A stretch of 64,000 bases of DNA from positions 434,001 through 498,000 of the forward strand of contig JACRHT010000012.1 of assembly GCA_016217545.1 (NCBI GenBank), in the 5' to 3' direction. Source of the DNA: Opitutia bacterium (lineage in GTDB: Bacteria > Verrucomicrobiota > Verrucomicrobiia > Opitutales > Opitutaceae). The translations under genes were made by a program, and so were the position numbers. The notes beneath the pieces are model-generated. The model made no database searches. It saw only the letters and a list, made by a program, of their open reading frames with translations, and was not told where the DNA came from. The first letter of the stretch is position 1; each line of letters begins with the position of its first letter. Positions 4,729 through 64,000 of the stretch are shown piece after piece.

Positions 4729-4768
4729 GCGGCGACGCAGTGTGAGGAAAAAACTGACCGCCGCGTGC

Positions 4769-4841
4769 GGTAGGGCGGGACCGCTGGGCCCGCCGAGAAC
4801 GTGATGCCGACCGCGCGGCGGGCCCGGCGGTCCCGCCCACC
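4769..4841. repeat. Dispersed palindromic repeat family A, copy 1
   Basis: Left arm GGTAGGGCGGGACCGCTGGG continues into CCCGCCG; the right arm is its approximate reverse complement, ending GGTCCCGCCCACC. It is one of four copies in this window (also 10686-10750, 41603-41667, 55272-55345), all in the same orientation on the + strand. It lies in the gap after the methyltransferase gene. This copy has diverged most in its right arm. Confidence 0.85.
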
Positions 4842-5010: not shown

Positions 5011-7029
5011 TCACGGCGCCTTCAGGTGCTGCGCGAGGAAACGCTCGATGGCTTGGTAGAACTTCACGCCCTTTTCGTGGCTGGGAATCCAGTGGCCCAC
5101 TTCGTTCAGATAGAGCGTCTGCGGCGGGCGACCGGCCTTCGTCAACGCCGCGGCCATCGCCTCCGAATGCTCGAACGGCACGGTGTTGTCGGCCTTGCCG
5201 TGGATGAGCAGGAGCGGGGCCGTCATCTGGCCGGCCATGTGCACGGGTGAGACGGCGGCGAGTCGCTGTTGCACGGCGGGGTCCTCCATGTCGCCGATGC
5301 GCTTGCTCCAGTAATAGTAAGATTCCTTGGCCGCATCGTCAGCGCGGCTCTTCCACAAGAGCGGCCAGTCCGCGACTCCGGCGAAGGAGATGCCGCAGCG
5401 ATACATCGCGGGCGTTTGGGCGAGCGCGAAGAGCGTGCTGTAGCCGCCGTAGCTCGCGCCCATGATCGCGAGGCGGCGCGGGTCGGCGATGCCCTGCTTC
5501 ACTACCCATCCGGTCATGTCGGTGATGTCGTCCTGGATTTTGCCGCCGATCTCCTTGGCACCTTGATCGAGGAACTCCGCGCCGTAACCGGAAGAACCGC
5601 GGTAGTTCACCTGCAACACCGCGTAGCCGCGGTTGGCGAGGAACTGCACGATCGGATCGTAGCCCCAGACGTCGCGCACCCAAGGGCCGCCATGCACGAG
5701 CGTCACCATCGGCAGGTCGCGCTGCGGCCGGCCGGTGGGCAAGGTGAGGTAGCCGTGCAACGCCAGTCCGTCGCGCGCGGTGCACGCGACCGGGTAAGTG
5801 TCGGCCATGTGCTCGGGCTTGATCCACGGGCAGCGGCGCGCGAGCACGCGGACTTTGCCGGTCTCGAGATCGACGAGCGTGTAGAGGCCGGGTTCGCGGG
5901 CGGAGTAGGACAACACCAGCAGGCGCTTCACCGCATCGTCCATGCTGACGATCAGGTTCACGTGGTCCGGGTGCATCTGCTGGATCTGCTTCTGGATGTT
6001 TTCCAGGTCGGGATTGAACCAGTATTCGTGCGGCCCATCGGTCACGTAGCGCACACCGAGGAGACGCTGGTAACCTTCCGAAAAAATCGGCTTGGCCAGC
6101 GTCTCGCCCGCGAACACCGGCATCCACTCCGGCGGCGTGAGGTCGTAGTCGCCCGCGCGGAACAACGGAGCCTCGGCCACCGCGCCCGTCTTCAAGTCGA
6201 GTTCAGCCAGCTCCCAGCGCCGCGTCGGGCCTTCGCGCGAGACGTAGAGCGTGCCACCGTCGGCGCTGATGCCGGAAATCCAGAAATGCCGCGCACGTTC
6301 CCCCAGCTCGCGCTTGCGCCACGGTTGGCCGGGGCCGTCGCGCTGGATCAGTTGGTAGGGGTCTTCGACTTTCTCGCCCTTCACGACGCCGAACCGCACC
6401 TCGCCGTCCCACCCTTGCAGCCACTGCGCGACGCGGCCGGGATTCAGGATGTAGGTGCGGAACATCGCGCTCGACGCGTCCATCTCCAGCACGTTCGGGA
6501 ACCACTCGGCTTTCTTGCCCCAGCCCTTGTGGTCGAAATCGTTGATCAGAATGCGCTGCTTGTCGGGGCCGCGATGCCCGAGCACCTCGTCGGTCCACAG
6601 GTAATTGGCGTCGCCGCGCTGCGTCTCGTGGCGAATCCAGCCGGTCAGCCCGGTCATCATGCTGAAGTTGCGATTGATCGCCGCCAGACCGCCTTCCCAG
6701 ATCAACAGGCGCTCGGAGCTCAGCCAATCGAAGCCGACCACGGGCCAGTAGCCGTAGCTGAACGAGCGCGCGCGCTCCGTCTCCAGCGGCATGATGCCCA
6801 GTTCGAGCCGCTTCTCGCGCGCGAAGAGGTAGCCGAGGTGTTTGCCATCGGGCGAGAGCTTGGCGGCTGTGATGTCGGGCGGCCGGGCGAAATCCTCGAC
6901 GGGCAGGAGCGGCGGTGGCACCGCCGCCGCACCGGTTGATTTCTCCGCGTCCGCCCGCGCTTCCGCGCAAGCCAGCAGCGCGAGCCCCGCCAGCCCGCAC
7001 AGGGTGGCCCTCCCGAAGTGCCGATTCAT
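5011..7029 (-). CDS. S9 family peptidase (prolyl oligopeptidase type), paralogue 1
   Basis: An exported serine peptidase of 672 residues that would release dipeptides or cleave short peptides. The start chosen is ATG at 7029 because it begins a good signal sequence (MNRHFGRATLCGLAGLALLA, then C); LLAC could be a lipobox, so it may be a lipoprotein. The N-terminal half is the beta-propeller region. The C-terminal alpha/beta hydrolase domain shows HGGPW, the nucleophile motif GASYGGYS (Ser near residue 525), Asp in HGKADNTVP and His in EVGHWIP. It lies in tandem with a paralogue at 7121-9106. The 36 bp covering the signal-peptide start are identical between the two genes. Confidence 0.93.
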   Translation of the reverse strand: MNRHFGRATLCGLAGLALLACAEARADAEKSTGAAAVPPPLLPVEDFARPPDITAAKLSPDGKHLGYLFAREKRLELGIMPLETERARSFSYGYWPVVGFDWLSSERLLIWEGGLAAINRNFSMMTGLTGWIRHETQRGDANYLWTDEVLGHRGPDKQRILINDFDHKGWGKKAEWFPNVLEMDASSAMFRTYILNPGRVAQWLQGWDGEVRFGVVKGEKVEDPYQLIQRDGPGQPWRKRELGERARHFWISGISADGGTLYVSREGPTRRWELAELDLKTGAVAEAPLFRAGDYDLTPPEWMPVFAGETLAKPIFSEGYQRLLGVRYVTDGPHEYWFNPDLENIQKQIQQMHPDHVNLIVSMDDAVKRLLVLSYSAREPGLYTLVDLETGKVRVLARRCPWIKPEHMADTYPVACTARDGLALHGYLTLPTGRPQRDLPMVTLVHGGPWVRDVWGYDPIVQFLANRGYAVLQVNYRGSSGYGAEFLDQGAKEIGGKIQDDITDMTGWVVKQGIADPRRLAIMGASYGGYSTLFALAQTPAMYRCGISFAGVADWPLLWKSRADDAAKESYYYWSKRIGDMEDPAVQQRLAAVSPVHMAGQMTAPLLLIHGKADNTVPFEHSEAMAAALTKAGRPPQTLYLNEVGHWIPSHEKGVKFYQAIERFLAQHLKAP

Positions 7030-7120: not shown

Positions 7121-9106
7121 TCACGGCGTGAGGTTCTTCGCGAGGAAGGCTTCGAGCTTCGTCAGGAATTCGACGCCGTCTTTGTCGGCCGGCCAATTGT
7201 GGCCTTGGTTCTCGAAGAACTGCGTTTCCGGCGGGTGGCCGACTTTCTTCAGCGCCGCGACCATGGCGCGCGCCTGCCGGATTGGCACGCGCCCGTCTTC
7301 CTCACCGTGCATGATGAAGAGCGGAGCGGTGATCTTCGCGGCCAGGTTCACCGGCGACACGTCGGCGAGCCGGCGCTTCTCCTCGGGTTTGTCGATGTCG
7401 CCGACCTGCGTGCGCCACCAGTTGATGGCCTCGATCATGTGCTCCTCAATCAAGTCGTCGGAGAGGCTGACCCAATTCGTCACCGCCATGCAGGCGACGC
7501 CGCATCGGAACAAGTCCGGCGTGCGCGCGAGCGCCATCAGCGTGCTGTAGCCGCCGTAGCTCGCGCCCATGATGGCGACGCGGCGCGGATCGGCGAAGCC
7601 CTGTTTCACGGCCCACCGCGTCATGTCCTCGATGTCGTCCTCGATCTTGGCGCCCACTTCGTGGCGTCCCTTGAGGTAGAATTCATCGCCGTAGCCGCCC
7701 GAGCCGCGGTAGTTCACCTGCAGCACGGCGTAGCCGCGATTGGCGAGGAACTGCACGAGCGGATCGAAACCCCATTCGTCGCGCACGCCGTAGGGACCGC
7801 CGTGCACGAACACGACCATGGGGTGGTTCTTTTGGCCGCGTCCGACGGGGATCGTGAGGTAGCCATTGATTTCCAGTCCATCGCGCGCCTTGCAGGCGAC
7901 GGGGAACATGTCGGCCATTTCCGAGGCCTTGATCCAGGGGCGCACGGCGGCGAGCGGCTTGCTTTGACCGTTTTCGAGATCGAGGAGCGTGTAATACCCC
8001 GCCTCGCGCGCCGAACTCGAGTAGACGAGCATCCGGCGCAGGTCGCGATCCATGCTGACGATCAGGTTCACGAGCCCGGGATGCGCCGCGTCGATCTGCT
8101 TCTGCAACGTGGCGAGCGCGGGCTCGAACCAGAATTGGCGCGGGCCCTCCGTGATGTAGCGCACGCCGAGCAGGCGCTGGTGTTTTTGGGAAAATATCGC
8201 CGTGTCCACGTCGTATTTGTCGTGCTGGAAGAGCGGACCCGTGACTTCGCCGGTCGCGAGGTTGTGCGCGTAGAGCGCCTTGCGGCCTTTCGCGTTGGGT
8301 TTGAACACATACAACGTCTCGCCGTCGCCACCCACGCCCGCGAAGCCGTGACCGATCGTGTCCTGGCCGAACGGGATGGGCTGGCTCCACGCGTCGTCCG
8401 GCTTGCGGCGGAAGATCAGGCTCGCGTTCACGCCGTCGGTCGCGAGTCCGAAGCGCACCGCGCCATTCCAGTCCGCGAGCCACGCGGTGACGTTGCCCGG
8501 ATTCTTCATCACGGAATTGAACGCGCCGTTCTCGGTGTTGAGCCGGAAAACATCGGGGTGCACGCGATCCGCGCCGACCTCGGTGGGCGCCACGCTCACC
8601 AGCAGCCGCTTGGTATCATACAATTTCTGGCGGATGATCGCGTTCGGCAGGAAAAGCTCCGGCGAGCCGAGCGAATACTGGCCCGGATGCTCATCGGCCC
8701 AGCGACCGAAGCCCGTCAAATAGCGCAGGTGCTCGCGATTCGCGTCCACGGCCACCCAGCCCATCGACGTCATCATCACGATGCGGCGATCGCCGACCCA
8801 CTCGAAACCGTAGACGTCGTTCTTGAAGCGGAAAGCCTTGTCCCGCCTCGCCCAGAGGAACTCGGCTTTCCCCGTCGCGACGTCGAGGAAACCGACCCCC
8901 GAGTTCTCGTCCTTCTGCACGATGTAGCCGACATAGGCTCCGTCCGGCGAAAGCGCAGGGGCGAAGAATTGCGGCGCGCGCGCGAAATCCTCCACCGGTA
9001 TGAGCCGCGGCACGCTGCCGCCAGCGGGCTTCTTCTCGTCGGCGCACGCGACCGTCGCGAGCGCTGCCAGCCCGCACAGGGTGGCCCTCCCGAAGTGCCG
9101 AATCAT
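7121..9106 (-). CDS. S9 family peptidase (prolyl oligopeptidase type), paralogue 2
   Basis: A 661-residue exported serine peptidase, paralogous to the gene downstream of it. The start is ATG at 9106, giving MIRHFGRATLCGLAALATVA followed by C. The catalytic serine is in MGASYGGYST, with Asp in HGEEDGRVP and His in ENQGHNWP. HGGPYGVRDEWGFDPLVQFL and NRGYAVLQVNYRGSGGYG are typical of the S9 catalytic domain. The gap to paralogue 1 is about 90 bp on the same strand, so they are probably cotranscribed. It diverges from the ridA-lpxR pair at 9236. Confidence 0.93.
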   Translation of the reverse strand: MIRHFGRATLCGLAALATVACADEKKPAGGSVPRLIPVEDFARAPQFFAPALSPDGAYVGYIVQKDENSGVGFLDVATGKAEFLWARRDKAFRFKNDVYGFEWVGDRRIVMMTSMGWVAVDANREHLRYLTGFGRWADEHPGQYSLGSPELFLPNAIIRQKLYDTKRLLVSVAPTEVGADRVHPDVFRLNTENGAFNSVMKNPGNVTAWLADWNGAVRFGLATDGVNASLIFRRKPDDAWSQPIPFGQDTIGHGFAGVGGDGETLYVFKPNAKGRKALYAHNLATGEVTGPLFQHDKYDVDTAIFSQKHQRLLGVRYITEGPRQFWFEPALATLQKQIDAAHPGLVNLIVSMDRDLRRMLVYSSSAREAGYYTLLDLENGQSKPLAAVRPWIKASEMADMFPVACKARDGLEINGYLTIPVGRGQKNHPMVVFVHGGPYGVRDEWGFDPLVQFLANRGYAVLQVNYRGSGGYGDEFYLKGRHEVGAKIEDDIEDMTRWAVKQGFADPRRVAIMGASYGGYSTLMALARTPDLFRCGVACMAVTNWVSLSDDLIEEHMIEAINWWRTQVGDIDKPEEKRRLADVSPVNLAAKITAPLFIMHGEEDGRVPIRQARAMVAALKKVGHPPETQFFENQGHNWPADKDGVEFLTKLEAFLAKNLTP

Positions 9107-9190
9107 GCCGGGTTTTCTGACGGCGACCACGCCCCGCCGCAACCGGATTTGCGCGCCCGGGCGCCGCCGTCGCGGCCGTGGTTTGAAATC

Positions 9191-9222
9191 TTTCTCGTTC
9201 TCCTTCCCGTTCCTCGTTCTCC
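9191..9222. repeat. Single degenerate arm of the GAGAAC-hexamer element
   Basis: TTTCTCGTTCTCCTTCCCGT continuing TCCTCGTTCTCC resembles the arms of the element at 45363-45444 and 62894-63355, without a visible partner arm. It ends 13 bp before the ridA start codon. It may be a remnant of an insertion or a chance pyrimidine-rich leader. Confidence 0.5.
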
Positions 9223-9235
9223 TTCCGCCACCACC

Positions 9236-10675: not shown

Positions 10676-10685
10676 CGCAGCCTGG

Positions 10686-10750
10686 GGTAGGGCGGGACCG
10701 CTGGGCCCGCCGAAACACGTTCGCGGCGCGCCCAGCGGTCGCGCCCTACC
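10686..10750. repeat. Dispersed palindromic repeat family A, copy 2
   Basis: GGTAGGGCGGGACCGCTGGG at the left and CCCAGCGGTCGCGCCCTACC at the right form an inverted repeat of about 65 bp. The right arm is nearly identical to those of copies 3 and 4. It is part of the 338-bp stretch without genes between the LpxR-like gene and the sugar kinase. Confidence 0.9.
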
Positions 10751-10794
10751 AGTGATGCCGACATCGTCGCTCCCTGCCGCCACGAATCCGCTCA

Positions 10795-41547: not shown

Positions 41548-41602
41548 GACCGGTCTCCGACCGGCCCAAAGCCGCGAGCGTCAGCGGATCCGCGAAGCAT
41601 GC

Positions 41603-41667
41603 GGTAGGGCGGGACCGCTGGGCCCGCCGCAACCCATTCGCGGCGCGCCCAGCGGTCGCGCCCTACC
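41603..41667. repeat. Dispersed palindromic repeat family A, copy 3
   Basis: The left arm GGTAGGGCGGGACCGCTGGG and right arm CCCAGCGGTCGCGCCCTACC are identical to those of copy 2 (10686-10750); the central spacer differs slightly. It lies between the small membrane protein gene and the hybrid kinase gene. Confidence 0.9.
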
Positions 41668-41741
41668 TATTCAACCTCGTTCGCCGCCTCCGCCCTCCGT
41701 CCTTCGCTTCCGGCATTGCCCGCGCGCCCCACCCGGCAAAG

Positions 41742-45329
<3,588 letters not shown>

Positions 45330-45362
45330 CCTCCATGGCGAAACCCACCCGCCGTCTCTCAA

Positions 45363-45444
45363 TCGTTCTCGTTCCTCATTCTCTTTCTCGTTCTCCGTTC
45401 CTTACGAGCCGAGAGAACGAGAACGAGTAAGAGAACGAGAACGA
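45363..45444 (+). mobile_element. Solo GAGAAC-hexamer inverted-repeat element (internally deleted form of the IVP cassette)
   Basis: The left arm (45363-45396, TCGTTCTCGTTCCTCATTCT then CTTTCTCGTTCTCC) and right arm (45413-45444, GAGAACGAGAACGAGTAAGA then GAACGAGAACGA) are separated by 16 bp. By eye the left arm matches the left arm of the IVP cassette (63322-63355, reverse strand) at 32 of 34 positions and the right arm matches its right arm at 31 of 32, where TAA replaces the TAG stop of the IVP gene. It contains no gene and would fold into a long hairpin. It lies between two kinase genes. Confidence 0.75.
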
Positions 45445-45474
45445 TTCTCTCGCCGCCGCTCATTTTCCGCTGAC

Positions 45475-46545
<1,071 letters not shown>

Positions 46546-55141: not shown

Positions 55142-55595
55142 TGTCATCGCGAGACCCGCAACGCGGGCCGTGGCGATCCCGCTGGAACTGCAGATGGAAG
55201 TCACGTTCTCGCTGCGCTCGCTAGCTGCCTCGCTGCCTACTGGGATTGCGGAATGAAGTGGCGAAGCGTGCGGTAGGGCGGGACCGCTGGGCCCGCCGAG
55301 AACGTGATGCCACCCTCGCGGCGCGCCCAGCGGTCGCGCCCTACCGGTTGTGCCGCCCTCGTCACATCTTCGGAATATCCTCCATAGTGTAGCGCAGTTC
55401 TCCGGCCTGCTCCGGGCAAGGCGGGCTGGAAGCCCGCGCGACGAAGCCCCCGTTTCCGCCCACCGTGTTTTGGCACGCTCTGGCACTGCTCCGTCAGGTC
55501 CCCGATTTATTCTCGGAGAACGCGAGGTAGCCCGGCCTCTCCGAGGACGGGTCCCAAGCACCCGCGCCCGGAGGTCCACTGACGTAACGGAGTAG
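55142..55595. other. Gene-free stretch packed with palindromic repeats
   Basis: The 483 bp between the crystallin-type gene and the first paralogue hold no convincing gene. They contain repeat-like hairpins: TCATCGCGAGACCCGCAACG running to 55176, family A copy 4 (55272-55345), GGCGGGCTGGAAGCCCGCG near 55428 and GGCCTCTCCGAGGACGGGTC near 55533. It looks like a site that has collected several repeat insertions. Confidence 0.6.
55272..55345. repeat. Dispersed palindromic repeat family A, copy 4
   Basis: GGTAGGGCGGGACCGCTGGG at 55272 and CCCAGCGGTCGCGCCCTACC ending at 55345, with a centre (GAGAACGTGATGCC) shared with copy 1 (4769-4841). It has the right arm of copies 2 and 3 but the centre of copy 1. 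Confidence 0.9.
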
Positions 55596-62887: not shown

Positions 62888-62893
62888 GAAAAA

Positions 62894-63355
62894 TCGTTCT
62901 CGTTCTCCTACTCGTTCTCGTTCTCCACAAGCTCAGAACCGTAGGAACCTGCGTCTTCCCGCACGTCGCCCGAGAAGCGAGCAATCAGCCCCGCCACGAG
63001 GGAGACAACCGCGTGGAGCAGAATCTTGCCCTCGGTCGCCTTGGTGGTGTCCAGGGTCTTTCGAGCGACCAAGACATCCAAGCACGCGGCGCACTCGACC
63101 GCCGATCCTCGGGCGATGTCGAGGTAGCGGCAGCGATCCAGGTGCGAGCGCTTGCCGTTACCCTCGGCAATATTGAGCACGATGCTGGTCGACGCTCGGT
63201 CCAGCTGATCCCGCGCGGCCAGCTTGGCCGGGAGCGACGCGAGAACCGGTTCGCACCACGCCGCAAACTTCACGGCTTCTTGGTAGGCCCGGAGTTTTTC
63301 GTGGTCGAAGGTGGGGGGCATCGAGAACGAGAAAGAGAACGAGGAACGAGAACGA
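62894..63355 (-). mobile_element. IVP cassette: four-helix-bundle gene bounded by GAGAAC-hexamer inverted arms
   Basis: In gene orientation, the left arm (63355-63322, TCGTTCTCGTTCCTCGTTCT then CTTTCTCGTTCTCG) abuts the ATG, and the right arm (62926-62894, GAGAACGAGAACGAGTAGGA then GAACGAGAACGA) encodes the last residues ENENE and the stop. The arms are inverted copies of one motif. The unit is 462 bp and fits exactly between the miaB stop (63356) and the leader of the membrane-protein gene (62887). The deleted form at 45363-45444 supports mobility. No transposase gene is present; the four-helix-bundle protein is the only product. Confidence 0.7.
62908..63321 (-). CDS. Four-helix-bundle protein (IVP/S23 type), gene of the cassette
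   Basis: A 137-residue all-helical protein of the TIGR02436 family (23S rRNA intervening-sequence protein, related to Avd of diversity-generating retroelements). The diagnostic segment is ASTSIVLNIAEGNGKRS near residues 44-60; KLRAYQEAVKFAAWCEPVLA opens the first helix. Members bind nucleic acid, but no enzymatic function is known. The start is ATG at 63321, directly after the left arm, with no Shine-Dalgarno visible. The C-terminal ENENE is encoded by the right arm. No rRNA gene is near, so this is not an rRNA intervening sequence. Confidence 0.85.
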   Translation of the reverse strand: MPPTFDHEKLRAYQEAVKFAAWCEPVLASLPAKLAARDQLDRASTSIVLNIAEGNGKRSHLDRCRYLDIARGSAVECAACLDVLVARKTLDTTKATEGKILLHAVVSLVAGLIARFSGDVREDAGSYGSELVENENE

Positions 63356-64000
63356 TCAGGACGGGACGCCCGCCAGCTCCAACTCACCGTAAAGCACGGC
63401 CGTGGATACGCGGTTGATTTTCACCGGGACCAGTTCGCCGATCAGGCGTTCGTGCGCCGGGAAATGCACGATGCGGTTGCCGCGCGTGCGGCCCATGAAT
63501 TGCACGCCCTTCTTGTCCGGGCCTTCGACGAGGACTTCCTGCGTCGTGCCGAGGAGCGTGGCGTTGCGGCGGTCAGAGTTTTGCTCAAGCAGGCGCAAAA
63601 GGATCTGATTCCGCTCCTCCTTCACCTCGTCCGGAATCTGGTCGCCCATGTCGGCGGCGGGTGTGCCGGAACGGACGGAGTATTTGAAGACGTAGGCCAT
63701 GTCGTAGTTGCAGGCCTCGAAGAGCGCGCGCGTCTGCTCGAAGTCCTCCGCGGTCTCGCCGGGGAAGCCGACGATGATGTCCGTCGAGAAATACATGTCG
63801 GGCCGCACGCGGCGCAGGTCGTCGACGATCTGCTTGTAGCGGTCGCGCGAGTAGGGCCGGTTCATCAGCCGCAGGATGCGGTCGCTGCCACTCTGCATCG
63901 GCAGGTGGACGTATTCGCAGAGTTTCTCGAGGCGGCCGTAGGCAGCGACGAGGTCGTCCTTGAAGCCGCGTGGGTGCGGTGAGGTGAAGCGGATGCGGCG
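63356..64000 (-). CDS. miaB: tRNA-2-methylthio-N6-dimethylallyladenosine synthase, 5' part outside window
   Basis: The C-terminal 214 residues of a radical-SAM methylthiotransferase. Visible parts are RRIRFTSPHPRGF, CEYVHLPMQSGSDRILRLMN, DIIVGFPGETAEDFEQT and YSVRSGTPAADM, all typical of MiaB, then the TRAM domain (EVLVEGPDKKGVQFMGRTRG). The enzyme adds a methylthio group to i6A37 of tRNAs. The frame runs to the right edge. Its stop codon (63356-63358) directly adjoins the left arm of the IVP cassette. Confidence 0.95.
   Translation of the reverse strand, partial: RRIRFTSPHPRGFKDDLVAAYGRLEKLCEYVHLPMQSGSDRILRLMNRPYSRDRYKQIVDDLRRVRPDMYFSTDIIVGFPGETAEDFEQTRALFEACNYDMAYVFKYSVRSGTPAADMGDQIPDEVKEERNQILLRLLEQNSDRRNATLLGTTQEVLVEGPDKKGVQFMGRTRGNRIVHFPAHERLIGELVPVKINRVSTAVLYGELELAGVPS

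Follow-up and report, generated by a model that had tools for sequence, protein, structure and literature searches.

The window, a stretch of 64,000 nucleotides from an Opitutia genome of 5.09 Mb in 17 contigs, contains two structures built from the same pair of arms: a cassette with a single gene at 62892-63356 and a gene-less element at 45362-45446. Both lie between protein-coding frames. The gene of the cassette is on the reverse strand (62907-63321) and encodes an IVP of 137 residues, as judged from its translation, profile matches and AlphaFold model. It belongs to the IVP/S23p family, matching PF05635 with an E-value of 2.5e-20 (73.1 bits, cut-off 33.8) and TIGR02436 with an E-value of 2.8e-17 (62.9 bits, cut-off 24). 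It is the only gene there, and neither a nuclease nor a transposase is found inside the cassette. An A-type arm (63323-63356, reverse strand), recognized by arm comparison, forms the 5' end and sits 1 nt ahead of the IVP ATG. The 3' end is a B-type arm on the same strand (62892-62925), recognized by arm comparison and periodicity, which encodes the C terminus of the protein together with its stop codon.

The AlphaFold model of the IVP consists of four helices with a pLDDT of 91.0, and its best matches in the PDB, 2GSC and 2RLD (TM to target 0.85-0.90), identify it as a four-helix bundle. Both of these are solved IVPs with five chains each, and an IVP from Xanthomonas is cited as a homopentameric toroid (PMC4990558). 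The model also matches 4DWL and 8UB7, structures of the Avd protein of diversity-generating retroelements, with weaker E-values than for 2GSC and 2RLD, suggesting that Avd has the same fold. One IVP of this genome has Opitutia or Opitutaceae MAGs as the nearest named entries among the matches listed, and of 194 sampled Verrucomicrobiota genomes 131 contain the PF05635 'four helix bundle protein' family.

The element at 45362-45446 is oriented along the forward strand. Its left arm (45362-45395, A type) carries five words of about 6 nt of the TCGTTC type, counted by eye, and is 97% complementary over 34 nt to the 5' arm of the cassette. The right arm (45413-45446, B type) holds five 6-nt words of the GAGAAC type, with a period-6 tract at 45413-45444, and is 97% complementary over 34 nt to the cassette 3' arm. 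Loop comparison finds no IVP sequence in the 17 nt between them (45396-45412), and the element stops 28 bp short of the next ATG. The initial annotation had recognized both cassette arms at 45363-45444, the right one with TAA in place of the cassette TAG, and in this it was correct apart from the slightly larger extent given here. It was also right that the arms are close together and that a gene start follows at a short distance, although the values it gave, 16 and 30 bp, differ from those measured. The related arm that it placed at 9191-9222, before a gene it called ridA, exists on the forward strand at 9189-9225, where it is a solo and degenerate arm of the same word.

Gene-less copies in the host genome

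The 12-mer TCGTTCTCGTTC occurs 54 times in the genome, whereas its reversed control does not occur at all. At five of these places (L037-L041) the 12-mer stands alone, outside any arm; the rest are in arms, a single arm often having two or more. A BLAST search of the genome with the element returned 52 matches, the two strands of one copy being counted separately. From these data 22 gene-less two-armed copies could be read, the one at 45362-45446 included, next to the cassette and a small number of solo or partial arms. Fifteen of the 22 combine an A and a B end as the cassette does, six have two B ends and one has two A ends, with a small A/B margin in several. Their loops measure 9-50 nt and are devoid of IVP sequence, and most of them bear no relation to one another. 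Thus, the arms seem to enclose arbitrary DNA, and the gene-less copies do not seem to have arisen from the cassette by deletion.

This bears directly on the initial annotation, which took the element for an internal deletion derivative of the cassette. MITEs are such gene-less copies, produced by internal deletions of a transposase-bearing element and sharing both of its ends. The copies here do share both ends with the gene-bearing one, an A and a B end being retained in the 15 just mentioned, and a truncated element consisting of a 5' arm and the start of an IVP gene is present on Nostoc C052 plasmid E (L339). However, there is no transposase in the cassette, and the loops of the typed copies are not deletion remnants. 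Internal deletion was therefore rejected as the origin of the window copy, the loop of which holds no IVP sequence, and we consider a MITE-like derivation very improbable. Target-site duplication, another feature of MITEs, was not established among the 22 copies: matching repeats are weak, with three at k=5, where shuffles give 0.55 (p 0.013), and p 0.23 at k=3, and an exact 5-bp repeat is seen at one cyanobacterial site (described below).

The genome has six IVP genes in all. By eye, each of the other five lies inside inverted arms of a private word, namely AGCTTTA, GCGGAGA, GGACGGA, CCGGATT or CCAAACG. GGACGGAGGAC, the word of the second IVP (L011), is found with at most one mismatch at 71 places against one for the control, these being counts of sequence matches, and three of the 71 are the arms of the L011 IVP itself.

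Other repeats were observed in the window. A solo period-7 tract of a TCTTCCG-type word lies directly before an ATG at 2139-2180 and is probably a single arm of another word. A long G+C-rich palindrome (GGTAGGGCGGGACCGCTGGGCCCGCCG...) occurs four times, at 4763-4838, 10680-10755, 41597-41672 and 55266-55341, and represents another hairpin family. Finally, 5385-5679 and 7492-7786, about 2.1 kb apart, are related with 79% identity over 295 nt, perhaps through gene duplication.

Arms, words and IVP lineages

To test for arms around IVP genes in general, we aligned the upstream flank locally to the reverse-complemented downstream flank and set the threshold at a score of at least 14. Genus and phylum searches in Verrucomicrobiota yielded 101 loci with 106 IVP ORFs, 102 of which had full flanks. 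Arms were present at 83 of these 102; mispaired flanks reached the threshold in 13 of 306 cases and other ORFs at the same loci in 12 of 352 (counts derived from fractions). A second set, the best 80 of at least 553 loci, spans Chloroflexota, Cyanobacteriota, Bacteroidota, Acidobacteriota, Nitrospirota, Proteobacteria and others. Here, 63 of 82 IVP ORFs reached the threshold, against 39 of 246 mispaired flanks and 11 of 366 other ORFs. The 80 loci were selected for their resemblance to a single IVP type, and the loci used here and in the other sets include orthologous or near-identical pairs, so that they are not independent. The higher mispaired value in this set is probably because many close relatives share the word TCAGC.

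The association is weaker in viral contigs, where six of 12 IVP ORFs have arms. Accordingly, six viral IVP ORFs are without arms at this threshold, as are 19 of the 102 from Verrucomicrobiota and 19 of the 82 from the best 80 of at least 553 loci. In cyanobacterial plasmids, arms were found at 16 of 17 IVP genes (17 fetched out of 28 plasmid records, with longer flanks and without a control), with words such as GGGAACA, GTCAGGA and GGTGTAG that by our own reading are of the STRR type. Three of the plasmid elements (L321, L323 and L326) are located within CRISPR operons, with cas6/cas4, or cas10 and a Cmr3-family gene, on either side, and a fourth (L324) follows a TraM-like gene.

The words are of low complexity and the copies intergenic, as would be seen if ordinary simple repeats or terminators happened to surround an IVP gene. 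Yet arms accompany IVP genes across phyla, compared with 3-4% of other ORFs, and the A and B ends are distinct from each other. The initial annotation had itself named ubiquitous simple repeats as the finding that would speak against a mobile origin; the excess of TCGTTCTCGTTC over its reversed control and the association with IVP genes point the other way. A chance arrangement of simple repeats was ruled out on these two grounds, and we regard this explanation as hardly probable at all.

The arms are strongly periodic. Over the 79 upstream arms retained from the 102 Verrucomicrobiota IVP ORFs, identity is 0.633 at lag 7 and 0.598 at lag 14, compared with 0.23-0.29 at the other lags from 2 to 15, and 63 of the 79 have 7 as their best period. 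Among the period-7 tracts of 184 ORFs, the modal number of units is five, both upstream (39 of 96) and downstream (57 of 117). The distribution is long-tailed, with nine units or more in 16 of the 96 upstream and 18 of the 117 downstream tracts. The window family has a period of 6 and, by eye, five words per arm. A word layout of five fixed and two adjacent variable positions was also considered and is not claimed, as an almost identical profile emerged from a control with permuted columns.

The word also follows the protein. We compared IVPs in pairs with non-homologous flanks, retaining 140 of the 184 ORFs (arm score at least 14, arm alignment of 16-75 nt). A word is common to 14 of 22 pairs at 70% protein identity or above and to 92 of 163 at 60-70%, falling to 110 of 894 at 50-60% and 73 of 8448 below 50%; many of the word-sharing pairs belong to a single lineage with TCAGC-type words. 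Since these pairs are at unrelated flanks, the word travels with the protein and not with the site.

Occupied and empty sites in relatives

Orthologues of the cassette are present in two sister genomes, G003 and G005, with a DNA identity of 78-79% across the site. Their arms use TCTTTC, and no unit is TCGTTC. The other copies differ from those of our genome in the same way. In G005, 57 of 68 12-mers are TCTTTCTCTTTC, six are mixed and five are TCGTTCTCGTTC, and in G003 the corresponding numbers are 15, two and one of 18, whereas our genome has five of TCTTTCTCTTTC and 54 of TCGTTCTCGTTC. Mixtures are found in G007 (19 TCTTTCTCTTTC, six mixed and nine TCGTTCTCGTTC, n=34) and G009 (three, 11 and nine, n=23), both without a cassette at the site. 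These are counts of 12-mers, not all of which are shown to be two-armed elements, and plain low-complexity DNA may account for some of the TCTTTC places. We based the comparison on per-word counts because the control for a degenerate pattern was high (24 in G005), the reversed pattern also matching inside TCTTTC arms. A joint change of word in the cassette and in the other copies, seen across the three genomes with a cassette, is what a relation in trans predicts.

The sites themselves are variably occupied. At the 45363 site, located between two regulator genes, the element is missing from G008 and G009 of the same genus, G007 carries one with the word TCTTTC and G005 a different palindrome; the search for an empty counterpart proposed by the initial annotation thus succeeded in two genomes and met other repeats in two. 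The shared mobile origin that it had suggested for the cassette and the gene-less copies is supported by these empty sites, by the dispersal of the copies, by the joint change of word between our genome and G003/G005 and by the empty plasmid sites below. Reading of the cassette site by eye shows gene-less hairpins with other words in G004, G007, G009 and G010. In G008 the hairpin there has decayed, and in G002 none is clear. This suggests either a hot spot or arms that have been rewritten in place. The L011 IVP is common to G006 and G008 at its site, where G009 is empty and G004, G005 and G007 have other sequence. Sites are thus reused across sister genomes.

One copy, E29, is common to our genome and G007 with a conserved loop and changed unit numbers, and therefore some copies are old and inherited. 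The site of another, E28, holds other sequence in G007, with no readable empty site. In G005, the place of E29 is occupied by a palindrome similar to the GGTAGGGCGGGACCGCTGGGCCCGCCG family. Intergenic sites of the genus, in L307 400-10700 against G005/G007 and in L260 and L263, are repeatedly filled by different repeat families in different species and may be insertion-tolerant or hot spots.

Insertion can be read in cyanobacterial plasmids. Plasmid C of T. variabilis ATCC 29413 carries an IVP element that plasmids of N. linckia NIES-25, Fremyella and Aulosira, 98-99% identical, are without. Measured against N. linckia, the insertion comprises 428 bp, of which 5 bp are an exact repeat, GTAAT. 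In Nostoc ATCC 53789, plasmid pNsp_a has an element where its own pNsp_c is empty; it is flanked at either end by TTCTA, adjacent to a 1-nt indel. About 300 bp further, pNsp_c has an IVP element of another word where Nostoc C052 plasmid A is empty, an insert of 506 bp with a 3-bp overlap. In addition, a gene-less element of about 180 bp is inserted inside an IVP gene of the same word on plasmid pNPM1 of Nostoc sp. N6 (L346, approximately 778-959). Its loop is unrelated sequence with a further hairpin, and no target repeat was seen at its ends.

Eight plasmid comparisons thus gave one exact 5-bp target repeat, one of 5 bp with the neighboring 1-nt indel and one of 3 bp, and in the remaining five (L324, L328, L330, L321 versus L349, and the N6 insert) a repeat was either absent or unreadable. 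Target repeats are therefore not general. The 5-bp repeat suggests staggered cutting of the target, from a single exact case.

Part of this variation could have arisen with little transposition. Old intergenic hairpins would then have had their words homogenized, inside each arm through slippage and from one arm of the quasi-palindrome to the other through template switching, with the IVP as a passenger or stabilizer. The different-word hairpins that sister genomes hold at the cassette and 45363 sites fit such rewriting in place, as do the single, identical change that separates orthologous cassettes across both arms and the kept loop of E29. It does not account for empty plasmid sites in close relatives or for an insertion into an IVP gene, nor for dispersed copies that share the word of the cassette in the same genome or a word that tracks the IVP lineage at unrelated sites. 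As the sole explanation we find it unlikely, but rewriting in place and transposition may both act.

The hairpins could instead function as RNA. The element at 45362-45446 is predicted to fold into a strong RNA hairpin (-45.2 kcal/mol, z -7.5 against 200 shuffles). No Rfam family scored above its gathering score at 45000-45800; the 12 matches there were all to microRNA models, none of which reached its gathering score (best E 2.5e-6), such as a plain hairpin may give. TRAP is a ring-shaped RNA-binding protein that recognizes repeated words in RNA, and an IVP could similarly read repeated RNA words in hairpins that serve as mRNA targets or terminators, their spread being secondary. The likeness of the IVP fold to Avd, which is found in a reverse transcriptase ribonucleoprotein, agrees with this, and a regulatory role has been proposed for the TAACTGA heptamers of Beggiatoaceae (PMC4679880). 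On the other hand, the IVP gene is itself flanked by arms as inverted ends, gene-less copies enclose unrelated loops, and plasmid insertions would not be explained by RNA regulation alone. Such a role as the primary one appears distinctly unlikely.

The proposed IVP element and known repeat systems

On balance, the observations as a whole are probably best explained by a mobile family that we name the IVP element, and the structure at 45362-45446 seems to be a gene-less, non-autonomous member of it. A full element would consist of an IVP gene flanked by two inverted arms, each made of a short word in tandem, usually five times, with a word length of 7 nt in most lineages and 6 nt in that of the window. 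One putative IVP ring would bind one arm, with one word per subunit; we infer this ratio from the five chains of the solved IVPs and the modal five units. The IVP lineage and its word would co-evolve. By binding both arms the ring would bring them together in synapsis, and whatever DNA they enclose, whether it contains the IVP gene or not, would be moved or copied in trans. Catalysis would presumably fall to an enzyme outside the cassette, supplied by the host or in trans.

Several known systems resemble the IVP element in part. REPs and REPINs are dispersed, short intergenic hairpins linked to a single copy of a RAYT gene, and RAYT is a Y1 tyrosine transposase. The window hairpins are similarly dispersed, short, intergenic and linked to a single protein-coding copy, but the gene of that copy encodes a four-helix-bundle IVP in place of a Y1 transposase, and the arms are tandem words.

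In rRNA intervening sequences (IVS) of Coxiella and Leptospira, an S23p/IVP ORF is located in the loop of a long stem; they are called selfish, and an older idea is of a mobile element whose ORF served mobility (PMC4990558). The window cassette is likewise an IVP ORF between complementary ends. A further feature of IVS is their excision from RNA by RNase III; in the window, a strong RNA hairpin is predicted for the gene-less element. However, the window elements are found between protein genes, not in an rRNA helix, and the arms of IVP elements are iterated words that vary by IVP lineage, with many gene-less copies.

Closer to the arms themselves are the cyanobacterial STRRs, described as 7-bp tandem repeats that form hairpins, of unknown function (PMC2670836). 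STRR-type words flank IVP genes in Nostocales plasmids and IVP arms generally have a period of 7, whereas the period in the window lineage is 6. Dispersed intergenic heptamers have also been described as GGGAATC in Xanthomonas, GGGGA(T/C)T in Nostoc and TAACTGA in Beggiatoaceae, although as quadruplex or regulatory repeats (PMC4692102, PMC4679880). In the account of X. campestris, there are 186 GGGAATC repeats and 70 inverted pairs, generally with no association with mobile elements, and two Xanthomonas genomes have 70 and 75 inverted pairs (PMC4692102). The solved IVP 2GSC (XCC0516) is from X. campestris, the same species as these repeats. The terms 'four helix' and 'S23' are absent from the main texts of PMC4692102 and PMC4679880. 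Across the open-access titles and abstracts listed, a scope outside which preprints and most subscription journals fall, there was no link of IVP, S23 or four-helix-bundle genes with heptamer arms.

We tentatively extend the IVP element, as a possibility that stops short of probable, to a widespread and unrecognized class of mobile DNA. Its only gene would encode a non-catalytic pentameric ring that reads one word of 6-8 nt per subunit in arms of typically five words. Rings and words would form private codes, several per genome, with hairpins mobilized in trans and a genome-wide word that can switch between sister species. STRRs, the GGGAATC heptamers of Xanthomonas and rRNA IVS would be local faces of this class.

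If this is true, the heptamer repeats of cyanobacteria, Xanthomonas and Beggiatoaceae, which are without a settled explanation in the accounts cited (PMC2670836, PMC4692102, PMC4679880), would gain an owner. A function would be suggested for the common 'four helix bundle protein' family, and the puzzling intervening sequences of rRNA would have a natural home. The many private pairs of word and ring would make the evolution of nucleic-acid recognition directly testable. The IVP element also raises the question of how movement is achieved with one gene and no known nuclease.
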